Source: Candidatus Woesebacteria bacterium
GTDB taxonomy: Bacteria; Patescibacteriota; Microgenomatia; Woykebacterales; 2-01-FULL-43-14
Reading direction: 5' to 3'
Length of the DNA: 32,146 nt
Assembly (NCBI GenBank): GCA_020060105.1
Contig: JAGVAV010000037.1
Span: 1 to 32,146 of the forward strand
Shown one piece after another: positions 4,644-27,267 of the stretch. Below the pieces are notes generated by a model. That model did no database searches, was not told the DNA's origin, and worked only from the letters and a program-made list of their open reading frames with translations. How positions within the stretch are numbered: the stretch's first letter is position 1; each line of letters begins with the position of its first letter. Position numbers and translations under genes: made by a program.

Positions 4644-4663
4644 AAGTTTTTCTCCTCAACAAC

Positions 4664-6493
4664 TCAATTATACTTTTTCAACTGTAAAGTTAGATCACGA
4701 AACTCTTTACGTAACAGTTCCAATTTTACCATATCATTCAAGATTTCGGCTTGCTTTACTTCTAGGGCCAGTTTTTTCAATCTCCGACGTAAGTTTAAAC
4801 TTTTCAGCTCATTAACACAAGCCCTAAATTCCTTCTCTAGTCTTTCCTCATCTTCAAGTAAATAGTCTTCTATTTCTGTCAACAATAACTCATCCACCAA
4901 ACTCACTAACTCTCCCGGCAAATCCAAAACATACTTTTTTACCTTAAAGCCTTCTTTGTCTTGGCAAAACAGTTGATGCCTTTCGTAAAGAACTCTCAGC
5001 TTTTCATTCAAGAAGTCTGTGGCCATCAACTCTTGGGATCGAATTTTTGTCTGTAGCAACAAACTCAGTAAATATCTTTCTAAAACCTCGCCCCGATCCA
5101 ACCGAACGGGAGGTTTTGATGGATAAGTGTTTATCGAGGACGCAGACTTACTGGTCTCAGCTCTTTTTCCCAAAACCTTTACCAAAGCCGATTCCTCCAC
5201 TCCTAGAAGGCTGGCTAGCCTCTGAAGATAGTGTGAACGGGCTATCTCGTCATCTAGTTTTTTTAACAAAGGCAAAACTTCGGCGCTGATCTTCCGCTTA
5301 CCTTCCAATGTCTCCAACCCATGGCGAGAAACAGCCGAAGATAAATAATAATCATAAATGGGAATGGATTCCCTCACGCTTTCCTGCCAAATTTTTGGAC
5401 TTTTACGGGCGCACTCATCCGGATCTTTCCCAACCTTTGGTTGAATAATACTTATGTTCAGTCCGGTGTTTTCCGCCATTTCTATCGCCCTTTTACTAGC
5501 AGCATAGCCAGCGGAGTCTAAATCAAAGCAAAGGCCGATGTTGGAAGTGTAACGGTTAAGTAATTGCAATTGAGGGAAGGTCAAAGCCGTTCCTAAAGGA
5601 GCCGCCACATTCTTTACCCCCGCTTGACAAGAAGAAATCACGTCCAAATTACCCTCTACCAGAACTACTTGATTTACCTTTTTTATCTCTTCTTTGGCAA
5701 AATAAAGACCATACAAAGTTCTTCCCTTGTCAAAAACAATTGTTTCCGGGCTATTTAAGTATTTAGGCCCACCTTCGCCAAGGCTTCGGTGGGCAAGCCC
5801 GCCCGCAAGGTCTGATTCTGGCTCACGGGTAGGCTCCTCTGAGCCTAGCACGCGCCCGGAAAATCCAACCACCTCGCCCCGAACGTCATGAACCGGAAAG
5901 ATGATTCTTCCCCGAAAACGATCGTAAAACCCCTCCCCCCTGCCTGACGAAACGATCAATCCAGTCGCTAGTAAATCTTGCAAACTAAAACCCTTCTTGG
6001 TTAAATATTTCGCCACAAACTCCCATTGATCGGGGGCGTAGCCTAGCTGAAACTTTTTAATTGAATTAAGCGTCAAACCCCGTTCCTTCAAATAACCTAA
6101 GGCCTTCGCCCCGGAAGGGTGCTCTAGCAACACCCGGCTATACAGTTGAGCGGTGGTTTTATTAATCAAAAACACCCTTTCCTTCTGCTCCTCAATTGGC
6201 GAAGGATGATACTCTTTCAGCGCCACTCCCGCTCTCTTCGCCAGTTGTTTTAAAGCTTCCCCAAACTCTATCCCTTCCAATTTCATTAGGAAATTATAAA
6301 TATCGCCACCCTCCCCGCAACCAAAACACTTATAGATCCCTCTCTCTTGAGAAACCATGAAAGAGGGAGTTTTTTCACTGTGGAAAGGGCAATTAGCTTT
6401 GTAATTTCGGCCCGCTTTTTTCAGGGGAATATATTCAGAAATAAGACTGACAATGTCAGTTTTTGACTTGACTTCCTCTATTTGACTATCCAC
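4664..6493 (-). CDS. dnaG: DNA primase DnaG with an in-frame repeat-derived insertion
   Basis: 609 residues from GTG 6491-6493, with GGGAG upstream. It makes RNA primers at the replication fork. CHC2 zinc finger at the N-terminus (C35, H38, C56, C59 in CPFH...CFGC), catalytic core about 115-215, Toprim domain with VVLVEGNLDVI (E280) and the DLDSAG acidic motif, then a helicase-binding C-terminal region. Odd feature: between GRVLG and PKYLNSPET, which are nearly adjacent in other DnaG proteins, there are about 22-26 extra residues (about 218-242) rich in Gly, Glu and Arg, encoded by palindromic repeat DNA (5767-5847). The reading frame is kept. rpoD follows 20 bases downstream. Confidence 0.97.
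   Translation of the reverse strand: MDSQIEEVKSKTDIVSLISEYIPLKKAGRNYKANCPFHSEKTPSFMVSQERGIYKCFGCGEGGDIYNFLMKLEGIEFGEALKQLAKRAGVALKEYHPSPIEEQKERVFLINKTTAQLYSRVLLEHPSGAKALGYLKERGLTLNSIKKFQLGYAPDQWEFVAKYLTKKGFSLQDLLATGLIVSSGRGEGFYDRFRGRIIFPVHDVRGEVVGFSGRVLGSEEPTREPESDLAGGLAHRSLGEGGPKYLNSPETIVFDKGRTLYGLYFAKEEIKKVNQVVLVEGNLDVISSCQAGVKNVAAPLGTALTFPQLQLLNRYTSNIGLCFDLDSAGYAASKRAIEMAENTGLNISIIQPKVGKDPDECARKSPKIWQESVRESIPIYDYYLSSAVSRHGLETLEGKRKISAEVLPLLKKLDDEIARSHYLQRLASLLGVEESALVKVLGKRAETSKSASSINTYPSKPPVRLDRGEVLERYLLSLLLQTKIRSQELMATDFLNEKLRVLYERHQLFCQDKEGFKVKKYVLDLPGELVSLVDELLLTEIEDYLLEDEERLEKEFRACVNELKSLNLRRRLKKLALEVKQAEILNDMVKLELLRKEFRDLTLQLKKYN
5767..5847. repeat. Palindromic repeats inserted in frame within dnaG
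   Basis: Two hairpin-forming palindromes: GCCCACC/GGTGGGC (5767-5794) around a GAAGCCTTGGCGAA core (minus strand), and TAGGCTC-4-GAGCCTA (5830-5847). The first has the same design as the palindromes near RNA genes in this window (arms variable, core GAAGC-TT-GCG). Together they encode the extra segment of DnaG between two motifs that are close together in other primases. Confidence 0.7.
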
Positions 6494-7127: not shown

Positions 7128-8042
7128 TTAATTAACTAAATTAATTGGACTTCCCTTTAAATAGGCTTCAACGTTGTCAATCATAATGTCGTTCGAAGTT
7201 CGAGCGGTTACATCAGTCCAAAAAGCAATGTGTGGAGTAGTAAAGCTCCTATCACTTTTTAACAATTCGCGGTAAGCGGGGTTACTTGTATCCCCCACCC
7301 CAATGTCCCCAGCATCAATTGCCGCTCCTGCAATATTCTTTCCAAGGGAGTCTTTAAGTGCTGCAACGTCAAAAGTTTTTAAAGCAGCGATCGAAATAAA
7401 ATACGATCCTTTTTTAAAAATACTAAAGAAATTCTTTTCGAGCAAACCTTCTGTCGAAGGCTCATATCTTAAACAATTCGCAACTACATCCACATCTTTT
7501 ACACAACTTAAAAGGTCATCGCCCCTTTTAAAGTAACTTACATTCATTCCGAAAGCCCCACAAAGTTCACCAACTCGTTTGCCTACATTTCCCGCACCTA
7601 AGATACAAACTTTCTTTCCTGAAAGTCCTAAAGTTTTTTCAGGAAAAGAGTTTCTGGGCAAATTATTAACATTTATATACCCTGGCAGCTGTCTAAATAG
7701 GTTTAAAAGCATCGCCACCACCCACTCTGCCACTGCTTCTTTATTGCAGCCAGGAGAATTTGAAACTAAGACATTAATTGATTTCAATTTAGGAAGATCC
7801 AGCCAACCAACACCGACAAGAGGAAGAGAAATAAATACGTCTTTAAGACCTGTGGCTTTTTCCTTCAGACCACATTCACCAGAACAAATAACATCAGCCC
7901 CTTGACACCTGGATAACCACTCTTCAGGGGTTGCAGGTACTTCATCGTAAAAAGTAACCTCGCCTAAGCTTTTTAGGCGTTCTATCTGGTCAGGGTATAG
8001 ATCCATGTCTTGGGTAATAACAATCTTTTTTCGCGTATTCAT
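7128..8042 (-). CDS. D-isomer-specific 2-hydroxyacid dehydrogenase family protein
   Basis: 304 residues with the two-domain arrangement of the family: substrate domain at both ends and a Rossmann NAD(P)-binding domain with GAGNVG at 149-154 (VCILGAGNVGKRVGELCGAFGM). The family reduces 2-keto acids to D-2-hydroxyacids. The catalytic histidine is plausible (TTPHIAFWT, about residue 270), but the usual Arg of the S-x-x-RG segment is replaced (SIAALKTFDVAAL) and the Glu of the D-V-F-E-x-E-P segment is not evident (AIDAGDIGVGD), so activity may be altered or lost. It sits between a GIY-YIG gene (10-base gap) and a NUDIX gene (4-base gap) on the same strand. Confidence 0.85.
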   Translation of the reverse strand: MNTRKKIVITQDMDLYPDQIERLKSLGEVTFYDEVPATPEEWLSRCQGADVICSGECGLKEKATGLKDVFISLPLVGVGWLDLPKLKSINVLVSNSPGCNKEAVAEWVVAMLLNLFRQLPGYINVNNLPRNSFPEKTLGLSGKKVCILGAGNVGKRVGELCGAFGMNVSYFKRGDDLLSCVKDVDVVANCLRYEPSTEGLLEKNFFSIFKKGSYFISIAALKTFDVAALKDSLGKNIAGAAIDAGDIGVGDTSNPAYRELLKSDRSFTTPHIAFWTDVTARTSNDIMIDNVEAYLKGSPINLVN

Positions 8043-8052
8043 TTTATTAACA

Positions 8053-8289
8053 TTAAACCAACCGACTGTTTCTAAAAGCTTGTCCAGAACCAGTTTTCAA
8101 GTATCTTTCAAAACGCAAAGCGTCAAGCCTATTTTTAAAAGCACAGAACCACAGTAATTCCAATGGTCTTAGATTTCTTGTTGACTCCGCAAACCCTTTT
8201 TCATGCTCTCTTAAGCGTTCTCTCAAATCAGGCGTAGAGCCTGTATAGATAGAGTTATCTTTTAGTTTTAGAAGGTAAACGTAGTACAT
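8053..8289 (-). CDS. GIY-YIG domain mini-protein
   Basis: 78 residues: YYVYLLK at 2-8, IYTGSTPDLRERLREHEKG at about 14-32 with conserved Arg and His, and the Glu-bearing helix ALRFERYLKTGSGQAFRN at about 57-74. Intact by motif. Its start codon and the 5' flank belong to a repeated block (8275-8413) that links it to tRNA-Ser(GGA); a second copy of this block next to tRNA-Ser(GCT) has lost the gene. The dehydrogenase gene begins 10 bases downstream. Function of stand-alone GIY-YIG proteins is not established; DNA cleavage is the expected chemistry. Confidence 0.85.
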   Translation of the reverse strand: MYYVYLLKLKDNSIYTGSTPDLRERLREHEKGFAESTRNLRPLELLWFCAFKNRLDALRFERYLKTGSGQAFRNSRLV

Positions 8290-8413
8290 GTAACCCTCTG
8301 CTAAAGCTACGGGTTACACACTTCGCTTATCAATTCTAGATTTTCGTAAAAACATTACCTCTTAAGTACTACATGGTCGAAGACCACACGAAGCTTTAGC
8401 GAAGTGTGGCGGA
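8275..8413. repeat. Long direct repeat, copy A (tRNA-Ser 3' flank plus GIY-YIG start)
   Basis: About 139 bases closely matching 10514-10653. It runs from the first codons of the GIY-YIG gene to the 3' end of tRNA-Ser(GGA). It contains two hairpins of the window's palindrome family: GTAACCC...GGGTTAC (8290-8317) and CCACAC...GTGTGG (8384-8409) with core CGAAGCTTTAGCGAAG. Confidence 0.8.
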
Positions 8414-8497
8414 GGAGGAGGGATTCGAACCCCCGATAGTCTCACGACTATATTCGCTTTCCAAGCGAACGCACTAGGCCAGCTATGCGACTCCTCC
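8407..8497 (-). tRNA. tRNA-Ser (anticodon GGA)
   Basis: Class II cloverleaf on the minus strand: acceptor GGAGGAG/CTCCTCC, anticodon loop TTGGAAA (GGA), long variable arm, T-loop GGTTCGAATCC, discriminator G and encoded CCA (8407-8409). The CCA is the first arm of a palindrome (8384-8409). Confidence 0.95.
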
Positions 8498-8570
8498 AAA
8501 CACAGTTAAGAACTCAAAATTCAAATCCGATCCCGATTAAATCAGATTCAAAAGCTAACATTTTCTTTAG

Positions 8571-8999
8571 TTATTTTAACAGTTCTTTGGCACGTTGAAA
8601 AACTTCTTTATCTGTTTTAAAAGTTAATTTCTCTTCTACCTGATCAGCAAGGACCCACCCACTGTTCTCTACTTCCCAGTCATGATCCTTAATATCTCCA
8701 GAGACATATTTCATTAAATAAAATTTCACCGTCTTACTGATCTTTTGCCCCTCTTGACGATAAAAATAATGAGTCTCGCCAGACTCATCCACTATTTCTG
8801 CTTCCACCCCGCCTTCTTCTCTCACTTCCCGGAGAGCCGTCTCTTTCATTGATTCGTCTTTCCCAACCAACCCTTTTGGAAAACCCCAGCCATGATGACC
8901 GCTGTGCTGCACCAGCAAAACATAAAACTGATCATTTTCATTCTTAAAAACTATTCCCCCAGCCGAATATTCTCTTTTCCATTGACTTTTTTCTGCCAC
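8571..8999 (-). CDS. NUDIX hydrolase, diadenosine-polyphosphate/MutT-like
   Basis: 142 residues from GTG 8997-8999, chosen because GGAGG sits four bases before it; a longer in-frame ATG at 9023 lacks such a site. The NUDIX box G-x5-E-x7-REV-x-EEGG lies at about residues 43-64, preceded by the strand VLLVQHSGHHGWGFPKG typical of the small Ap4A hydrolase/MutT group. Expected to hydrolyse a nucleoside polyphosphate in the cytosol. It lies between tRNA-Ser(GGA) and tRNA-Arg(CCG), all on the minus strand, and may be transcribed with them. Its upstream flank is the 84-base repeat 9038-9121. Confidence 0.88.
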   Translation of the reverse strand: MAEKSQWKREYSAGGIVFKNENDQFYVLLVQHSGHHGWGFPKGLVGKDESMKETALREVREEGGVEAEIVDESGETHYFYRQEGQKISKTVKFYLMKYVSGDIKDHDWEVENSGWVLADQVEEKLTFKTDKEVFQRAKELLK

Positions 9000-9037
9000 G
9001 CTACCTCCATAGGCCTGATCCATCAGGTCTGGCGTCT

Positions 9038-9121
9038 TGCCACCCGTCGCTAAAGTTATGGATGGTTTGCCATCCGAAGCTTTAGCGGAGGATGGCGCGC
9101 TCGGCGGGACTCGAACCCACA
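9038..9121. repeat. 84-bp direct repeat, copy 1 (tRNA-Arg 3' half and flank)
   Basis: Identical, as read, to 9624-9707. It includes the 3' part of tRNA-Arg(CCG) and two hairpins: CCACCC...GGATGG (9040-9065) and GCCATCC...GGATGGC (9069-9096). The second begins with the tRNA discriminator and CCA end. Confidence 0.85.
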
Positions 9122-9168
9122 GGCTTCGGCTCCGGAGGCCGACGCTCTATCCATTGAGCTACGAGCGC
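9093..9168 (-). tRNA. tRNA-Arg (anticodon CCG)
   Basis: Minus strand: acceptor GCGCTCG/CGAGCGC, anticodon loop CTCCGGA (CCG, reads CGG), T-arm GTGGG/CCCGC with TTCGAGT loop, discriminator G, encoded CCA (9093-9095). The 3' half and flank are duplicated at tRNA-Arg(GCG). Confidence 0.95.
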
Positions 9169-9268
9169 CAACAAAAATAAAAGATCAAAAAGCAAAATGC
9201 AAAGTTAGAAAATTAATAAATTTCGACTTTACAATTTTAACTTTGCACTTTGAACTTTTAACTGGGTG

Positions 9269-9359
9269 TGGCGGCGGGAGCAGGATTCGAACCTGCGACC
9301 CCAAAAGATGAGGTAATTGTTTTCGAGACAATCGCTTTCGTCCACTCAGCCATCCCGCC
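9269..9359 (-). tRNA. tRNA-Ser (anticodon CGA)
   Basis: Class II cloverleaf on the minus strand: acceptor GGCGGGA/TCCCGCC, anticodon stem ATTGT/ACAAT with loop CTCGAAA (CGA, reads TCG), long variable arm, T-loop GGTTCGAATCC, discriminator G and encoded CCA (9269-9271). Flanked by AT-rich tracts with inverted AAAGTTAAAA-type words; no GCTTTAGC palindrome at this one. Confidence 0.95.
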
Positions 9360-9448
9360 CAAACAATTAAAAATACAAAGTTCAAACCCGACTTAATCGT
9401 ATTCAAAATGCAAAGTATCTTCCTCTGATTTTATGAGAGCGATATTTT

Positions 9449-9619
9449 CTAACGAAAAATAAATAACGAAGCTAATTTTTGCTGTCTTGGTAACTTTTCA
9501 CTTCGAACTGCTAGTGGCTCACCACGTTTAAACCATGGATACCGGCAGTTTTTGACTAAAGGTTTCAACTCTGACTTAATTCCTTTAGAATCACGCTTTG
9601 AAGTCACTGGTTTAAACAT
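9449..9619 (-). CDS. Possible small basic protein, 56 residues
   Basis: A 56-codon frame from ATG 9617-9619 to TAG 9449-9451 fills most of the gap between tRNA-Arg(GCG) and tRNA-Ser(CGA) (9360-9678, otherwise without genes). The product is strongly basic (for example KNCRYPWFKRGEP and RSEKLPRQQK) and its composition is less AT-driven than the surrounding spacer. The upstream site (GGCAGGTC) is a weak ribosome binding site. No family recognised; it may be a decayed passenger gene or chance. Confidence 0.3.
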   Translation of the reverse strand: MFKPVTSKRDSKGIKSELKPLVKNCRYPWFKRGEPLAVRSEKLPRQQKLASLFIFR

Positions 9620-9623
9620 GACC

Positions 9624-9707
9624 TGCCACCCGTCGCTAAAGTTATGGATGGTTTGCCATCCGAAGCTTTAGCGGAGGATGGCGCGCTCGGCGGGACTCGA
9701 ACCCACA
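9624..9707. repeat. 84-bp direct repeat, copy 2 (tRNA-Arg 3' half and flank)
   Basis: Identical, as read, to 9038-9121. Hairpins at 9626-9651 and 9655-9682; the latter starts at the CCA end of tRNA-Arg(GCG). Confidence 0.85.
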
Positions 9708-9754
9708 ACCTTCAGATCCGCAATCTGATGCTCTATCCATTAAGCTACGAGCGC
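9679..9754 (-). tRNA. tRNA-Arg (anticodon GCG)
   Basis: Minus strand: acceptor GCGCTCG/CGAGCGC, anticodon stem TCAGA/TCTGA with loop TTGCGGA giving GCG (reads CGC and CGT), T-arm as in tRNA-Arg(CCG), discriminator G, encoded CCA (9679-9681). Most bacteria use ACG here, with A34 edited to inosine by TadA; a genomic G34 would not need the editing. Confidence 0.93.
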
Positions 9755-9817
9755 TAATCGCTTCGCTCAAATTAAAAGTTTAAAGTTAAAAGCGCAAAAT
9801 TATTAATAACTTTTAGG

Positions 9818-10501
9818 TTATTGAAGGACTTCTTTGGAAACAGGTTCAGCCACACTCCGGCTCTTTTCTATCGGCACACGATTAACCAGCCCCTCCGTGG
9901 CTTTTTCCCACCAATTGCTTTTAGGGAGCTCTCGAAAAGGAAGGTATTGAGAAAGAAATTCCTTAATCTTTTCTTTTTGGTCGGCCGGGTAAACCATCGT
10001 TAAACGACCAGGAAAGCCAACCTTCACATCAATATTTAAGACGGGCTCTCCATACTTTTCCGAAAACCAAAAGTCAAGCAACTCCGACCAAAGGTACTCC
10101 TGATTCCCCGAGATTATCCCTTGAGTGGTAATTTTATGCTCCACCTCCTCGGGTGGAACAGTCGCCAAAACATAAACCACAAAAACTACGGCAATAATCG
10201 CCCCAATTAAAATCAATTCCCCCATGTAAAGAAGGACCACCGAAATAACCGCCAACATCAAACCAATGTTAATAAACCACTTTTTACTTCGAGGTCGAAA
10301 AACTCGGGAAGGAGCTCGCCAAACCATCAGGTTCTCGGCCCGCTTTTCCAATTCTCGTTGCCCTTCGGGAGATGGTTCTTCCCTTGTTGGCAGACCTTCC
10401 ACCGGTTCTTCGGATCCTTCCAACCTTCTAATCTCGCCTTGAATCTTACCTAATTGATCTTTTAATTCTTTTAATGTGCTTTCTGTCGTCGGATCGGGCA
10501 T
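9818..10501 (-). CDS. Conserved-looking membrane protein with cytosolic C-terminal domain
   Basis: 227 residues from an ATG with AGGAGG five bases upstream. A charged, partly coiled-coil N-terminus (about 5-60) is followed by two adjacent membrane helices (about 75-112; INIGLMLAVISVVLLYMG and ILIGAIIAVVFVVYVLAT) and a soluble domain (about 113-200) with strand-rich sequence ITTQGIISGNQEYLWSELLDFWF. The domain order resembles small membrane proteins common in CPR genomes (a DUF5673-like domain is possible but I cannot verify it). It stands alone between tRNA-Arg(GCG) and the repeat block that follows tRNA-Ser(GCT). No enzymatic motif is visible. Confidence 0.8.
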   Translation of the reverse strand: MPDPTTESTLKELKDQLGKIQGEIRRLEGSEEPVEGLPTREEPSPEGQRELEKRAENLMVWRAPSRVFRPRSKKWFINIGLMLAVISVVLLYMGELILIGAIIAVVFVVYVLATVPPEEVEHKITTQGIISGNQEYLWSELLDFWFSEKYGEPVLNIDVKVGFPGRLTMVYPADQKEKIKEFLSQYLPFRELPKSNWWEKATEGLVNRVPIEKSRSVAEPVSKEVLQ

Positions 10502-10513
10502 ACTATCCTCCTG

Positions 10514-10653
10514 TTAAACGTGGTGCATGTAACCCTACGCGTAAAACTTCGGGTTACACACTTCGCTTATCAATTCTAGGTTTTCGTACAAACATTGCCT
10601 CTTAAGCACCGTATGGTCAAAGACCACACAAAGCTTTAGCGAAGTGTGGCGGA
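10514..10653. repeat. Long direct repeat, copy B (tRNA-Ser 3' flank with a GIY-YIG start relic)
   Basis: Closely matches 8275-8413. At its left end, bases equivalent to the GIY-YIG start (ATGCACCACGTTTAA on the minus strand) are kept but run at once into a stop, so the gene itself has been lost here. Hairpins at 10529-10557 (degenerate core) and 10624-10649. Confidence 0.75.
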
Positions 10654-10739
10654 AGGGGTGGGATTCGAACCCACGAGGCACGATTAAGCACCAAGCGGTT
10701 TAGCAAACCGCCGCACTAGACCAGCTATGCGACCCTTCC
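10647..10739 (-). tRNA. tRNA-Ser (anticodon GCT)
   Basis: Class II cloverleaf on the minus strand: acceptor GGAAGGG/CCCTTCC, anticodon stem GCGGT/ACCGC with loop TTGCTAA (GCT), long variable arm, T-loop GGTTCGAATCC, discriminator G and encoded CCA (10647-10649), which opens the palindrome 10624-10649. Confidence 0.95.
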
Positions 10740-10743
10740 TAAT

Positions 10744-10835
10744 AATTAAAAGTTCAAAGTTAAAAAAGCAAAGTTATTAAACCAATGGCTTCTTGATTTC
10801 GTAACTTTTAACTTTTCATTTTGAAACTTTAATTA
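10744..10835. repeat. AT-rich imperfect palindrome upstream of tRNA-Ser(GCT)
   Basis: Words such as AATTAAAAGTTCAAAGTT on the left are mirrored by AACTTTTCATTTTGAAAC and TTTAATT on the right, giving arms of about 28 bases around a unique centre. Similar but shorter AAAGTTAAAA/TTTTAACTTT inverted tracts occur at 9190-9262, 9775-9815 and 12365-12425. Confidence 0.5.
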
Positions 10836-10845
10836 TATTACGTGC

Positions 10846-10874
10846 AATATATCAGAAAACAGCGTAAAATTCAA
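10846..10874 (-). promoter_or_regulatory. Possible promoter of tRNA-Ser(GCT)
   Basis: On the minus strand TTGAAT (10869-10874), a 17-base spacer and TATATT (10846-10851), about 107 bases before the tRNA 5' end and divergent from the comF-like gene. The long AT-rich palindrome lies between promoter and tRNA. Confidence 0.45.
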
Positions 10875-10879
10875 TCAGA

Positions 10880-11575
10880 ATGAGAACGCTTTCGGGAATC
10901 AAAAACTTGTTTCTAGAAGTCTTTTTCCCCAAAACCTGCCTCTTTTGTAGCAAACCCCACACCTATCTTTGCCTTGGTTGCCTAAAGAAACTCCAAACCG
11001 AAAGGGAAAGCGTTTGTTACCGCTGTCAAAGACCCGCCATCCACGGCTTTACCCACCCCGCCTGCCAAAAAAAGTTTGGCCTTGACGGGATCCTAATTGC
11101 CTCCTCTTACGATAAAGTCTTGAAGAAAACCATTCACGCCTTCAAATACCGCTTTATTAAAGAACTCGAGGAGCCCCTAGGGAAAATTTTAAACAACTTC
11201 CTTGAGGATAAGCTTTACCCGACAGACATAATCATCCCCGTTCCCCTTCATTCCCAAAAATCAAGACAGCGAGAATTTAACCAATCCTTGTTACTGGCCG
11301 AGAAAGTTAGTCAAAAGTTTCATTTACCTCTTCAACCCAAGTTACTCATTCGAAAACGAGCGACTTCCTCTCAAACCGAGTTTAACAGAGAAGAGCGTTA
11401 CCGCAATCTCAAAAATGCCTTTCATTGTCCTCACCCAAGGGAAATCGAAGGGAAAAAAATCTTGCTTATTGATGATGTCGCCACAACGTTTACGACACTA
11501 GAGGAATGTAGCAAAGTTTTGAAAAAAGCCGGGGCCAGAAAAGTCTGGGCGGCAGTGTTAGCTCATGGAAGATAA
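10880..11575 (+). CDS. comF: ComF family phosphoribosyltransferase-like protein
   Basis: 231 residues. An N-terminal double zinc-finger (C20-x2-C23, C31-x2-C34, then C46-x2-C49 and C62) is followed by a type I phosphoribosyltransferase domain with DIIIPVPLHSQKSRQREFNQS (about 117-137) and the PRPP loop ILLIDDVATTFTTL (about 196-209). ComF proteins are linked to DNA uptake and recombination downstream of competence pili, which is notable given the pilin locus from 17.8 kb, but there is no direct linkage. The start has a poor ribosome binding site (ATCAGA). It is the only plus-strand gene between 3 and 17 kb; it converges on a GIY-YIG gene with a gap of four bases. Confidence 0.9.
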   Translation: MRTLSGIKNLFLEVFFPKTCLFCSKPHTYLCLGCLKKLQTERESVCYRCQRPAIHGFTHPACQKKFGLDGILIASSYDKVLKKTIHAFKYRFIKELEEPLGKILNNFLEDKLYPTDIIIPVPLHSQKSRQREFNQSLLLAEKVSQKFHLPLQPKLLIRKRATSSQTEFNREERYRNLKNAFHCPHPREIEGKKILLIDDVATTFTTLEECSKVLKKAGARKVWAAVLAHGR

Positions 11576-11579
11576 GAAG

Positions 11580-11816
11580 TTAAAGAAAATGTTTATTCGT
11601 GAAGGCTCTGCCTGAGGCCGTCTTGAGATACTTTTCAAAAAGAATTGCTTTTTTCTTGGAACAAAAGGAACAATACCAAGCTAATTTAATCGGGCGGTAG
11701 TTTGAGGTTGAAGTTACACCACCTTCTTGGTGTTTCTCGATTCTTTTCTTGAGGTTCTCCGTCTGGCCAACGTAGTGTTTTCCGTTTGTTCGCAGCAAAA
11801 TATATACGTAAAACAT
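11580..11816 (-). CDS. GIY-YIG domain mini-protein
   Basis: 78 residues: FYVYILL at 2-8, HYVGQTENLKKRIEKHQEGG at about 14-33 with conserved Arg and His, and FEKYLKTASGRAF at about 60-72 carrying the catalytic Glu. Intact by motif and the closest relative of the remnant at 1423-1500. Convergent with the comF-like gene. Its upstream flank holds a GC-rich palindrome (11854-11893) and lies just downstream of the tmRNA gene. Confidence 0.85.
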   Translation of the reverse strand: MFYVYILLRTNGKHYVGQTENLKKRIEKHQEGGVTSTSNYRPIKLAWYCSFCSKKKAILFEKYLKTASGRAFTNKHFL

Positions 11817-11853
11817 GGGTTAATGCGTTGTCTAACTGTTGGGGGCAAAAAGT

Positions 11854-11893
11854 GGCCCTCCTTCGTCCGCCAGTTGGCGGACTACGGGCGGGC
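11854..11893. repeat. GC-rich nested palindrome
   Basis: Inner perfect hairpin GTCCGCC-AGTT-GGCGGAC (11865-11882) within outer complementary GCCC/GGGC blocks. It stands out in an AT-rich intergenic stretch. I recall similar GCC-GCC...GGC-GGC palindromes scattered in CPR genomes, unverified. Confidence 0.6.
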
Positions 11894-11963
11894 AGTCTTC
11901 GTTGATATTATAAAGAGTAGTAGGCATACCCATTAGTCTAGAGTTTTAACGAAAACTGGCCTG

Positions 11964-11989
11964 CCAGTCGAAGCTTTAGCGAAGACTGG
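11964..11989. repeat. GCTTTAGC palindrome at the tmRNA 3' end
   Basis: CCAGTC...GACTGG arms with core GAAGCTTTAGCGAA. The right arm overlaps the encoded CCA of tmRNA (11987-11989), exactly as at three tRNA types in this window. Confidence 0.75.
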
Positions 11990-12353
11990 TGGAGCTGAGG
12001 GGAATTGCACCCCTGTCCGAAAAAACGACCCCGAAGTGGAACTACAAGCTTAGTTGATTGGCAATATTCCTTACCAACAAACCCAACCAACAAAAATTGT
12101 CAGTAAGTAAGGTTGATAAAAATTGGATAAAACCAGGGAAACCAACCCTAATAATCCATCCCAACTATGGTCATGCCTTAGTTACTCCGCTGGGAGAGAG
12201 TAAATAAGACACCTACCCGTTACGCAGTTGCGTAAGCATAGGTAGGAGAATATGCCTTGTTGGCATTTATCAATTTGATAGTCTTTTTCGGCTTTCTATC
12301 ATGGCCGGCTTGCCCACTGTCAAAGTGCCTTCCCGTCGAAGCTAAACAGCCCC
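11987..12353 (-). ncRNA. ssrA: Transfer-messenger RNA (tmRNA)
   Basis: 367 nt on the minus strand. The tRNA-like ends pair as GGGGCTG (12347-12353) with CAGCTCC (11991-11997), followed by discriminator A and CCA; the 5' end continues with TTTAGCTTCGACGGG and the T-arm has TGCAATTCCCCTC-like sequence. The tag frame runs from the resume codon GCC (12262-12264) to TAA (12220-12222) and encodes ANKAYSPTYAYATA. It rescues stalled ribosomes together with SmpB, whose gene ends 63 bases upstream. The tag ends in ATA instead of the usual Ala-Ala. Confidence 0.95.
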
Positions 12354-25392: not shown

Positions 25393-27267
25393 TTACTCTA
25401 CGTAAAATGGGGCCTGGTTAGCGTTGCCGAAATCAACGGTAAAGGGACCGCTTCTTGGCCGAAGCCTTGCAGGCTGAATAATCTTCGTCGGACCGGTAAA
25501 GGGAAATTCCAGCATCTCTCCGTTTGGATCGTCATACCCGGGGTCGTGGATAATCAAAGATCTGGCGTTCTTGCCATCATAGCCAATTATCCCCACCACC
25601 ACCATGTAGTGCCCAACACTGCCGTTGTAATTAGTCACGTTTAAGATAACCGGGTGGCCCGCCTTCAAAGCTTTATATATTCCGGTGGCCGACCTTTCCA
25701 AAGATACCGCCTTTTTCCCAAAAACGGCCGCTCCTTTAGTCAAGTTATACGTCTGATCTCCTTGAATGTAAACATCGCTGGGCAATTTCTTGATCACCGA
25801 CCATAAAGTCTCCGTCCCTGGAACGGTTAAATATTGAAGAGCCATGGTTAAGGAAGCGGGACCACAGGCGGACCACCAGATCTTTTTCACCACCTCCGGG
25901 TCTTCATTAAGCAAGCTGTAATATTCATGAACGTAAGGAACGTTGGGTAAGATCACTGTCGGCCCAGCATTTATCACCCAGGTCGTTTGGGCGGAAACAT
26001 TCTTTTTAACCGGACCTTCTTCATATTCACCCTCTACCCTCGCTTTATTAATTATGGTTCCTTTCTCATCAACACCTTTTGTTGTTTTGACCTCAATATT
26101 AAATTTATAATCTCCCAGTAAAGTGCCGATCTTAAAGCACATTTCCTTTATCGTATTTGCCTTTCCGCAGCTAGGTAAGGAAGGAAGACGATACGTCTTC
26201 GGGTCCGTGTTTATCAATCCCTGATCCACCCCTTCTTCAAAAAGGTCATACACTTTGACATTATTTAGTTTATACGCCCCCCGAGGTTTGATTGTAATTG
26301 TGTAAACAATCGTTTTTTCTCCCCTAACCTCATTAGCCACTTTTCCATCTACCGTCGCGGACTTACTAATCGCCACGTAGTGGGAAGCGCTGACGTAATC
26401 CGAAACGCCCCCAAAATCCCGAAAAGCCCCCATCACCAAAAGCAGTATCAGAATTACCAGCATAATTAATAAAACTACGAAGCATCCAACCCAGCCAAGA
26501 AGAGCGATTAAACCTCCAATAGCCCCGGCGGTGGCGTGAGCGGCTCCTGAGGCCAAAGCGGGCAAAGCTCTGGCCGCTAACTTGGCCATTCCCTTAGCCG
26601 CCATGTTAGCCGCCTTCGCCACTCCTTCTTTAGCCAAGCTGCTCGTCCCCTGGCCAATTTTTCCGCTAATCTGGCTGCTCAGGCTAGAAAAAACTTGTTT
26701 TCCAAAAGGAACTAGTCTAGAGGCGTTTTGGGAAATAAATATTTGAGCCCGGCTGTAAAGGTTTTGAACGGCGGAAGAAATCCGCCGGTAAATCTTACCC
26801 AAAGCTTCTCTTAAGAAGCTTCTTCTCCCCCCCTCTTTCGCTCGGGGGGGGCCGCTCCCGTCGCCAGACTGAGAGGGTTGATCTGAACCCTGATTACTTT
26901 CTTCTTGCTTTAAATATTCTTGATATTCTTCGTATAAGCTTTGCTTCTTTTCTTCCTTCTTCAATCTTGCTTGCTCTTCTTCCAATGCTTTTCTTTCTTC
27001 TTCTAATCTTCGCTCTTCCTCCGCCTTCTCCTTTTCCTGCTGTTTTTTTTCTTTGCCTTCTTTTTCCTTTTCTTTTTCCTCAGAGTCACCCCCGCCTAAA
27101 TTGAACTTAGATCCCTTTTCAGGAAGAATCTTTTTCTTCGGCCCTCTTATTTCTCCACCGACTTTAGAGACCAAACTCCTAAGAGGATTAGCCAAAAATC
27201 CCAACAAGCTAAAAATTGATCGGCTGGGTGGTTTTCCGGAAGAGCCGTATCGATAAATTTCCCCCAT
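25393..27267 (-). CDS. Membrane-anchored C39-like cysteine peptidase
   Basis: 624 residues from ATG 27267; a longer frame from TTG 27312 adds 15 residues but has no ribosome binding site. Numbering from ATG: charged Lys/Glu-rich coiled coil (about 60-125), membrane helix (about 250-281), a strand-rich DUF11-like domain (about 300-440) and a C39-type peptidase domain with catalytic Cys 468 (SACGPASLTMAL), His 553 (GHYMVVVGI) and Asp 575 (IIHDPGYDDP). C39 peptidases cleave leader peptides or peptide bonds on the exported side. The gene lies between the secretion-like genes on the opposite strand, suggesting a role in their processing, unproven. Confidence 0.8.
   Translation of the reverse strand: MGEIYRYGSSGKPPSRSIFSLLGFLANPLRSLVSKVGGEIRGPKKKILPEKGSKFNLGGGDSEEKEKEKEGKEKKQQEKEKAEEERRLEEERKALEEEQARLKKEEKKQSLYEEYQEYLKQEESNQGSDQPSQSGDGSGPPRAKEGGRRSFLREALGKIYRRISSAVQNLYSRAQIFISQNASRLVPFGKQVFSSLSSQISGKIGQGTSSLAKEGVAKAANMAAKGMAKLAARALPALASGAAHATAGAIGGLIALLGWVGCFVVLLIMLVILILLLVMGAFRDFGGVSDYVSASHYVAISKSATVDGKVANEVRGEKTIVYTITIKPRGAYKLNNVKVYDLFEEGVDQGLINTDPKTYRLPSLPSCGKANTIKEMCFKIGTLLGDYKFNIEVKTTKGVDEKGTIINKARVEGEYEEGPVKKNVSAQTTWVINAGPTVILPNVPYVHEYYSLLNEDPEVVKKIWWSACGPASLTMALQYLTVPGTETLWSVIKKLPSDVYIQGDQTYNLTKGAAVFGKKAVSLERSATGIYKALKAGHPVILNVTNYNGSVGHYMVVVGIIGYDGKNARSLIIHDPGYDDPNGEMLEFPFTGPTKIIQPARLRPRSGPFTVDFGNANQAPFYVE

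Follow-up and report, generated by a model that had tools for sequence, protein, structure and literature searches.

In the present study, we analysed a stretch of 32,146 nucleotides (nt) from Candidatus Woesebacteria bacterium (contig JAGVAV010000037.1 of assembly GCA_020060105.1), hereafter called the window, which is one contig of a 40-contig genome of 1,092,880 bases. The minus strand of the window carries genes for tRNA-Ser (GGA, GCT), tRNA-Arg (CCG, GCG), tRNA-Ser(CGA) and transfer-messenger RNA (tmRNA), and at five of these genes a palindrome starts on the encoded CCA end. An earlier reading made from the letters alone (the sequence-only reading) described these palindromes and overlooked the two small GIY-YIG genes behind tRNA-Ser(GGA) and the tmRNA (8053-8289 and 11580-11816), which alter the meaning of the palindromes. 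Together the palindrome, often the leader of such a gene, and the GIY-YIG gene resemble a mobile element not described before that takes its place next to tRNA genes.

Results

Hairpins at the tRNA and tmRNA ends of the window

The tRNA and tmRNA genes were called with ARAGORN, and the tmRNA also by Rfam (Table 1). The five palindromes reported at 8384-11989, with their start exactly on the CCA, were all found in their places, and the claim of at least ten related palindromes in the window also held, since a covariance model gave 11 at E<0.5 and 9 at E<0.001. The tRNA-Ser(CGA) and tRNA-Asn genes of the window were without such a hairpin. The two tRNA-Arg genes differ at 10 of 73 positions (63/73 identical), whereas the 59 nt from their discriminator base onward are identical. 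Because of these identical flanks, and because the tRNA-Ser flanks are copies of each other, the five hairpins amount to about three independent cases. At the leader behind tRNA-Ser(GCT), the GIY-YIG open reading frame (ORF) is lost or was never there.

Table 1. Positions of the palindromic elements, GIY-YIG genes and RNA genes in the window
Feature	Positions	Strand	Basis and remarks
Whole unit, putatively relocated: CCA hairpin, leader, GIY-YIG ORF	8041..8409	-	blastn to L225 4651-5025, 70%
Free-standing GIY-YIG gene (78 amino acids), 117 nt behind tRNA-Ser(GGA), same strand	8053..8289	-	PF01541 E=8.9e-15
Second hairpin of GIY-YIG leader, ends at GIY-YIG start codon	8291..8316	+	GTAACCC...GGGTTAC; covariance model; conserved in G002 copy
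CCA hairpin, tRNA-Ser(GGA)	8384..8409	-	CCACAC-TTCGCTAAAGCTTC-GTGTGG; opens with the encoded CCA (3 nt); covariance model E=5.7e-9
tRNA-Ser(GGA)	8407..8497	-	ARAGORN
Second, inverted hairpin of solo element behind tRNA-Arg(CCG)	9040..9065	+	covariance model E=0.44
CCA hairpin, tRNA-Arg(CCG)	9070..9095	-	CCATCC-TCCGCTAAAGCTTC-GGATGG; extended arms (G)CCATCC/GGATGG(C); covariance model
tRNA-Arg(CCG)	9093..9168	-	ARAGORN
Second hairpin of solo element behind tRNA-Arg(GCG)	9626..9651	+	covariance model E=0.44
CCA hairpin, tRNA-Arg(GCG)	9656..9681	-	arms (G)CCATCC/GGATGG(C); covariance model
tRNA-Arg(GCG)	9679..9754	-	ARAGORN
Leader without GIY-YIG, behind tRNA-Ser(GCT)	10523..10649	-	alignment, homologous to 8290-8409; blastn to L225 4907-5025
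CCA hairpin, tRNA-Ser(GCT)	10624..10649	-	CCACAC/GTGTGG; covariance model
tRNA-Ser(GCT)	10647..10739	-	ARAGORN
Free-standing GIY-YIG gene behind tmRNA	11580..11816	-	PF01541 E=6.3e-16
CCA hairpin, tmRNA	11964..11989	-	CCAGTC-TTCGCTAAAGCTTC-GACTGG; covariance model
tmRNA	11987..12353	-	ARAGORN and Rfam RF00023

GIY-YIG genes beside tRNA genes

The GIY-YIG proteins are 78-84 amino acids long, with the domain at residues 1-70 and no separate DNA-binding domain, and those of the window match PF01541 with E values of 1e-14 to 1e-17. Compared with its homologue in a second genome (G002), the gene at 8053-8289 gave a proportion of nonsynonymous differences (pN) of 0.15 and of synonymous differences (pS) of 0.89, the latter saturated, which points to purifying selection on the gene. 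A phage origin was rejected, since the GIY-YIG protein gave a single, weak phage match. The reading frame at 8053-8313 remains open upstream through the second hairpin of the leader (PVALAEGY ahead of the start Met). A third free-standing GIY-YIG gene, at 2125-2379 on the minus strand, has no tRNA directly beside it.

To place these genes, 106 GIY-YIG ORFs were taken regardless of tRNAs; almost all of them came from 59 genomes of the class (Microgenomatia) searched with PF01541. Both here and in the second phylum treated below, the loci used were the best-scoring ones. A tRNA or tmRNA gene on the same strand lay within 300 nt upstream of 44, downstream of 43, and on at least one side of 72 of the 106, and opposite-orientation neighbours numbered one upstream and none downstream. 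Random placement would give about 0.7% per side. In the Verrucomicrobia/Lentisphaerae phylum, 19 of 42 GIY-YIG genes stood behind a tRNA or tmRNA gene and none in opposite orientation, many of them with CCA-anchored palindromic leaders. From the side of the palindromes, a GIY-YIG gene was present within 700 nt downstream of 23 of the 83 core hairpins at RNA ends.

In many of the cases where a GIY-YIG ORF precedes a tRNA gene, the ORF ends on the TAG at positions 8-10 of that tRNA or on bases close by, and the two genes overlap by 9-20 nt; such overlaps were seen at L222, L291, L303, L315, L322, L326, L327, L347, L371 and other loci. A different palindrome family (GTAAGAAATTT...AACG) lies between tRNA ends and related GIY-YIG genes at four loci (L335, L337, L352, L355), and its arms likewise pair with tRNA-proximal bases.

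Anatomy and covariation of the stem

Across Patescibacteria and about eight other phyla, the hairpins at tRNA and tmRNA ends keep to one strict anatomy: the outer stem has 6 bp and varies, the internal loop (TTC/TWC) is constant, and the inner stem reads GCY/RGC. The 3x3 internal loop is nearly invariant, and the inner stem co-changes from GCT/AGC to GCC/GGC (66:17). At the 83 RNA ends, stem positions 1-6 were paired in 75-78 cases, and position 7, the discriminator, in 20, which is the chance level (shuffle mean 25); copying of the discriminator or the acceptor was rejected for this reason. Among 57 distinct elements, 96.7% of the cells were paired and 100 cells were double-changed, against 25 after shuffling, and the slid controls collapsed. 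The arms do covary with pairing kept, as the sequence-only reading had stated. It had further supposed that the arm changes with each RNA; the RNA's part of the arm is the CCA, constant in all RNAs, and the three variable nt lie downstream of the RNA.

The arm overlaps the tRNA by three bases (CCANNN), by two (CACTGC, CACTTC) or by none (CCCCAC), which indicates that the RNA supplies the CCA and the element the remainder. The proposal that the element copies its target at insertion has weak support, as the match ends at the CCA, the three variable bases belong to the element, and the base following TGG is C in 68 of 83 cases, with A, G or T discriminators alike. At L092, L094 and L095, tRNA-Ala or tRNA-Val genes without a canonical encoded CCA are followed by an element that begins at the last acceptor-stem CC and the discriminator A. 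The CNNNG motifs of the loop (CTTCG, CTWCG) match the cleavage motif of I-TevI (PMC4065259), a match too short to serve as evidence.

Copies in the genome and distribution across phyla

The exact core GAAGCTTTAGCGRAG has four matches in the 1,092,880 bases, every one of them in the tRNA cluster described here, against none for the reversed pattern, so that chance is excluded. With the covariance model and a threshold of E<0.001, the genome yielded 15 copies, of which seven lie on a tRNA or tmRNA CCA, one over a tRNA 5' end, one in a GIY-YIG leader and six elsewhere. In a survey of all 48 tRNAs of the genome, tRNA-Pro(GGG) showed the arms CCAGCC/GGCTGG, variant or imperfect hairpins were found at tRNA-Pro(TGG), Arg(TCT) and Leu(GAG), and most other tRNAs had none. 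Three tandem palindromes stand directly ahead of tRNA-Arg(TCT) (L066, G000:C10 ~26721-26850), the last arm overlapping the 5' end of the tRNA. Some palindromes lie in plain intergenic DNA, and one (5768-5793) is inside dnaG (ORF 4664-6493, minus strand), within an insertion of some 21 residues (...ESDLAGGLAHRSLGEGGPKYLN...) that keeps the reading frame; the best-matching solved DNA primase, 2au3, is without the insertion.

The pattern formed by T-arm, CCA and core turned up in 16 genomes out of 374 for the class; a search of the phylum (Patescibacteria) with a looser core gave 36 genomes out of 380. The reversed controls gave zero in both. In a scan of named genomes most matches were chance matches in coding DNA, and we counted only those on ARAGORN tRNA or tmRNA ends. 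Among the matches listed, such real ends belonged to Lentisphaerae, Verrucomicrobia, Acidobacteria, Nitrospirae, Dependentiae, FCPU426, Sumerlaeota and a metagenome-assembled genome of Sphingomonadales. The non-random placement at RNA ends and the kept pairing, both correctly given in the sequence-only reading, are far stronger across bacteria than in the window. In the Rfam scan the palindromes matched no curated covariance model; only tRNA, tmRNA and sub-threshold matches were returned, and no intron family. We found no prior description of the element in the open-access literature searched, outside which many subscription papers lie.

Change of tRNA partner

The unit at 8041-8409 runs from the CCA to just beyond the GIY-YIG stop codon. 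The window is syntenic with G002 (locus L225), and there the homologue of the unit (4651-5025) stands behind tRNA-Arg(GCG), not behind tRNA-Ser(GGA); the tRNA-Ser(GGA) and tRNA-Ser(GCT) ends of G002 are element-free. In a further genome (G001), one contig has the same element at both of its ends, in each case behind a different tRNA-Ser gene. GIY-YIG lineages go with particular tRNAs: in a tree of 103 GIY-YIG proteins we counted 43 changes of tRNA partner, compared with at least 53 in 200 shuffles, and most pairs of GIY-YIG genes with a common tRNA partner have no neighbouring genes in common within the ~1 kb available.

Discussion

We consider it probable that the palindromes form that end of a small mobile element which faces the RNA gene, the element being composed of a palindromic leader and a single-domain, free-standing GIY-YIG nuclease gene and lying at the borders of tRNA and tmRNA genes. 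The observations that speak for this are the anatomy, the covarying stems, the placement of GIY-YIG genes at tRNA borders in a single orientation, the purifying selection on the gene, the tie between nuclease lineages and particular tRNAs, the identical flanks of two differing tRNA-Arg genes and the other tRNA partner of the unit in a syntenic cluster; segB of phage T4, described below, is a precedent. Both the nuclease activity and the mobility are inferred. Proteins of the GIY-YIG family are DNA-cutting enzymes, some of which act on branched structures, and the nuclease of this element may nick or cut the palindrome or the tRNA border, after which repair would copy the unit behind or ahead of another tRNA copy. 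The junction would be the CCA common to every tRNA; we propose that the element therefore brings the matching TGG and leaves the tRNA end intact. The tRNA promoter probably drives the GIY-YIG gene, and hairpins in the leader may restrict translation of the gene, as happens with homing endonucleases of phages. Solo palindromes would be derivatives without the nuclease gene, either lost or never carried.

Several observations weigh against this explanation. No GIY-YIG gene lies within 700 nt of 60 of the 83 RNA-end hairpins, which we tentatively read as solo derivatives by analogy with the tRNA-Arg and tRNA-Ser(GCT) cases, and this core is missing from the leaders of many GIY-YIG units that lie at tRNA borders. 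The relocation comes from a single pair of genomes, with about 70% identity, and may instead be explained by loss of parallel copies; the association of clades with tRNAs could partly reflect vertical inheritance. Finally, the absence of a separate DNA-binding domain leaves the site-specificity unexplained.

An alternative, though an unlikely one, is an element acting at the RNA level, in which a hairpin in the tRNA precursor sequesters the CCA and controls 3' maturation or termination, the stems covarying by selection on the RNA. The start of the stem on the CCA, its position on the strand of the RNA gene and the 100 double-changed cells agree with such a role, and copies that alternate as X / X' / X could fold into hairpins that exclude one another. 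However, selection on the sense RNA predicts an excess of G-U pairs, whereas the departures from pairing at the 83 RNA ends were 8 G-T and 11 A-C; together with the end of pairing at the discriminator, this balance speaks against an involvement in 3' processing of the RNA. No T-tract follows the CCA hairpins listed, and the intrinsic terminator, a GC hairpin with a T-run, was rejected as a candidate. Furthermore, the hairpin is found on only about 7 of the 49 RNAs of the genome, some tRNA-Ala genes of the class carry it though their CCA is unencoded, and palindromes also stand at tRNA 5' ends, away from RNAs and inside dnaG. The suggestion that the arms are under selection for pairing with the 3' end of the RNA, affecting processing or termination, was not upheld by these results. 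We favour an element that acts at the DNA level, where stems may stay perfect because a hairpin or cruciform is selected for, or through template switching at quasi-palindromes, a process proposed from sequence histories to create and maintain hairpins (PMC8794818).

It is also quite unlikely that the GIY-YIG gene belongs to the resident, vertically inherited genes and simply makes use of tRNA promoters, perhaps serving the host in repair of tRNA loci, and that the hairpins are ordinary leader structures. Perfect co-orientation, purifying selection and lineages tied to one tRNA across wide distances would suit such a gene, but its occupancy is patchy, its tRNA partners differ within a syntenic cluster, solo hairpins exist, and sister lineages have non-homologous outer genes. 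Repeats like the repetitive extragenic palindromes (REP), mobilised by a Y1 (REP-associated tyrosine) transposase, are very improbable: the palindromes are internally bulged and frequently in inverted pairs, and Y1 transposases occur in G000, G001 and others, but among 22 genomes searched G002 and seven other element-bearing genomes had no Y1 match, exact cores number only 0-11 per genome, the stem sequence is unconserved, and the tRNA link is with GIY-YIG.

Beyond the mobile element favoured above, we put forward more tentatively, and as somewhat short of probable, a cross-phylum class of mobile elements for tRNA ends, whose nuclease would recognise the extruded palindrome structure (fixed internal loop, any 6-bp stem) and not a long sequence, with the universal CCA as docking junction and solo hairpins left behind at tRNA ends in many bacteria. 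The constant internal loop and arbitrary stems would fit a single-domain, structure-recognising nuclease, and docking on a universal CCA would let one element pass between any of the tRNA and tmRNA genes.

Small GIY-YIG genes occur widely, and their usual annotation says no more than nuclease of unknown role; most of those sampled in one class stand on tRNA borders in a single orientation. This placement gives testable biology, namely mobility directed at tRNAs, both in streamlined genomes and across phyla, and the GIY-YIG link would account for otherwise puzzling palindromes at tRNA CCA ends. It also advises caution, as perfect stem covariation beside an RNA gene need not imply an RNA function.

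Among known systems, the free-standing GIY-YIG homing endonucleases come closest, with SegB of phage T4 as the nearest precedent. The segB gene lies between tRNA-Arg and tRNA-Ile genes, and RNA hairpins regulate segB, mobE and I-TevI; as here, the gene is outside introns, between tRNA genes, with hairpins around the translation start (PMC2988022). Unlike SegB, the present element is found in bacterial chromosomes, encodes proteins of about 80 amino acids, and has a conserved palindrome exactly on the CCA of many tRNA species in at least two phyla. It shares with homing endonucleases the catalytic domain (PF01541) and a free-standing ORF next to a conserved gene, with no intron or intein (72/106 at tRNA borders); the separate DNA-binding domain that gives them site-specificity is absent, and for this reason we did not file the element among them. 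In the rRNA-gene insertions of the candidate phyla radiation, the same host group, GIY-YIG genes at a structural RNA gene are also known, sparse and outside homing, but the target is rRNA; only rRNA genes were reported, with no tRNA, palindromes or hairpins (PMC11270868). The REP and bacterial interspersed mosaic elements with their REP-associated tyrosine transposases are likewise short imperfect palindromes, frequently in inverted pairs; the present element was set apart from them by its variable stem with constant loop, its low copy number and the lack of a consistent Y1 transposase. The Rickettsia palindromic elements are small palindromes that insert in frame into proteins. One in-frame case, that in dnaG, may be compared with them; docking on the tRNA CCA and the link to GIY-YIG genes are specific to the element described here.

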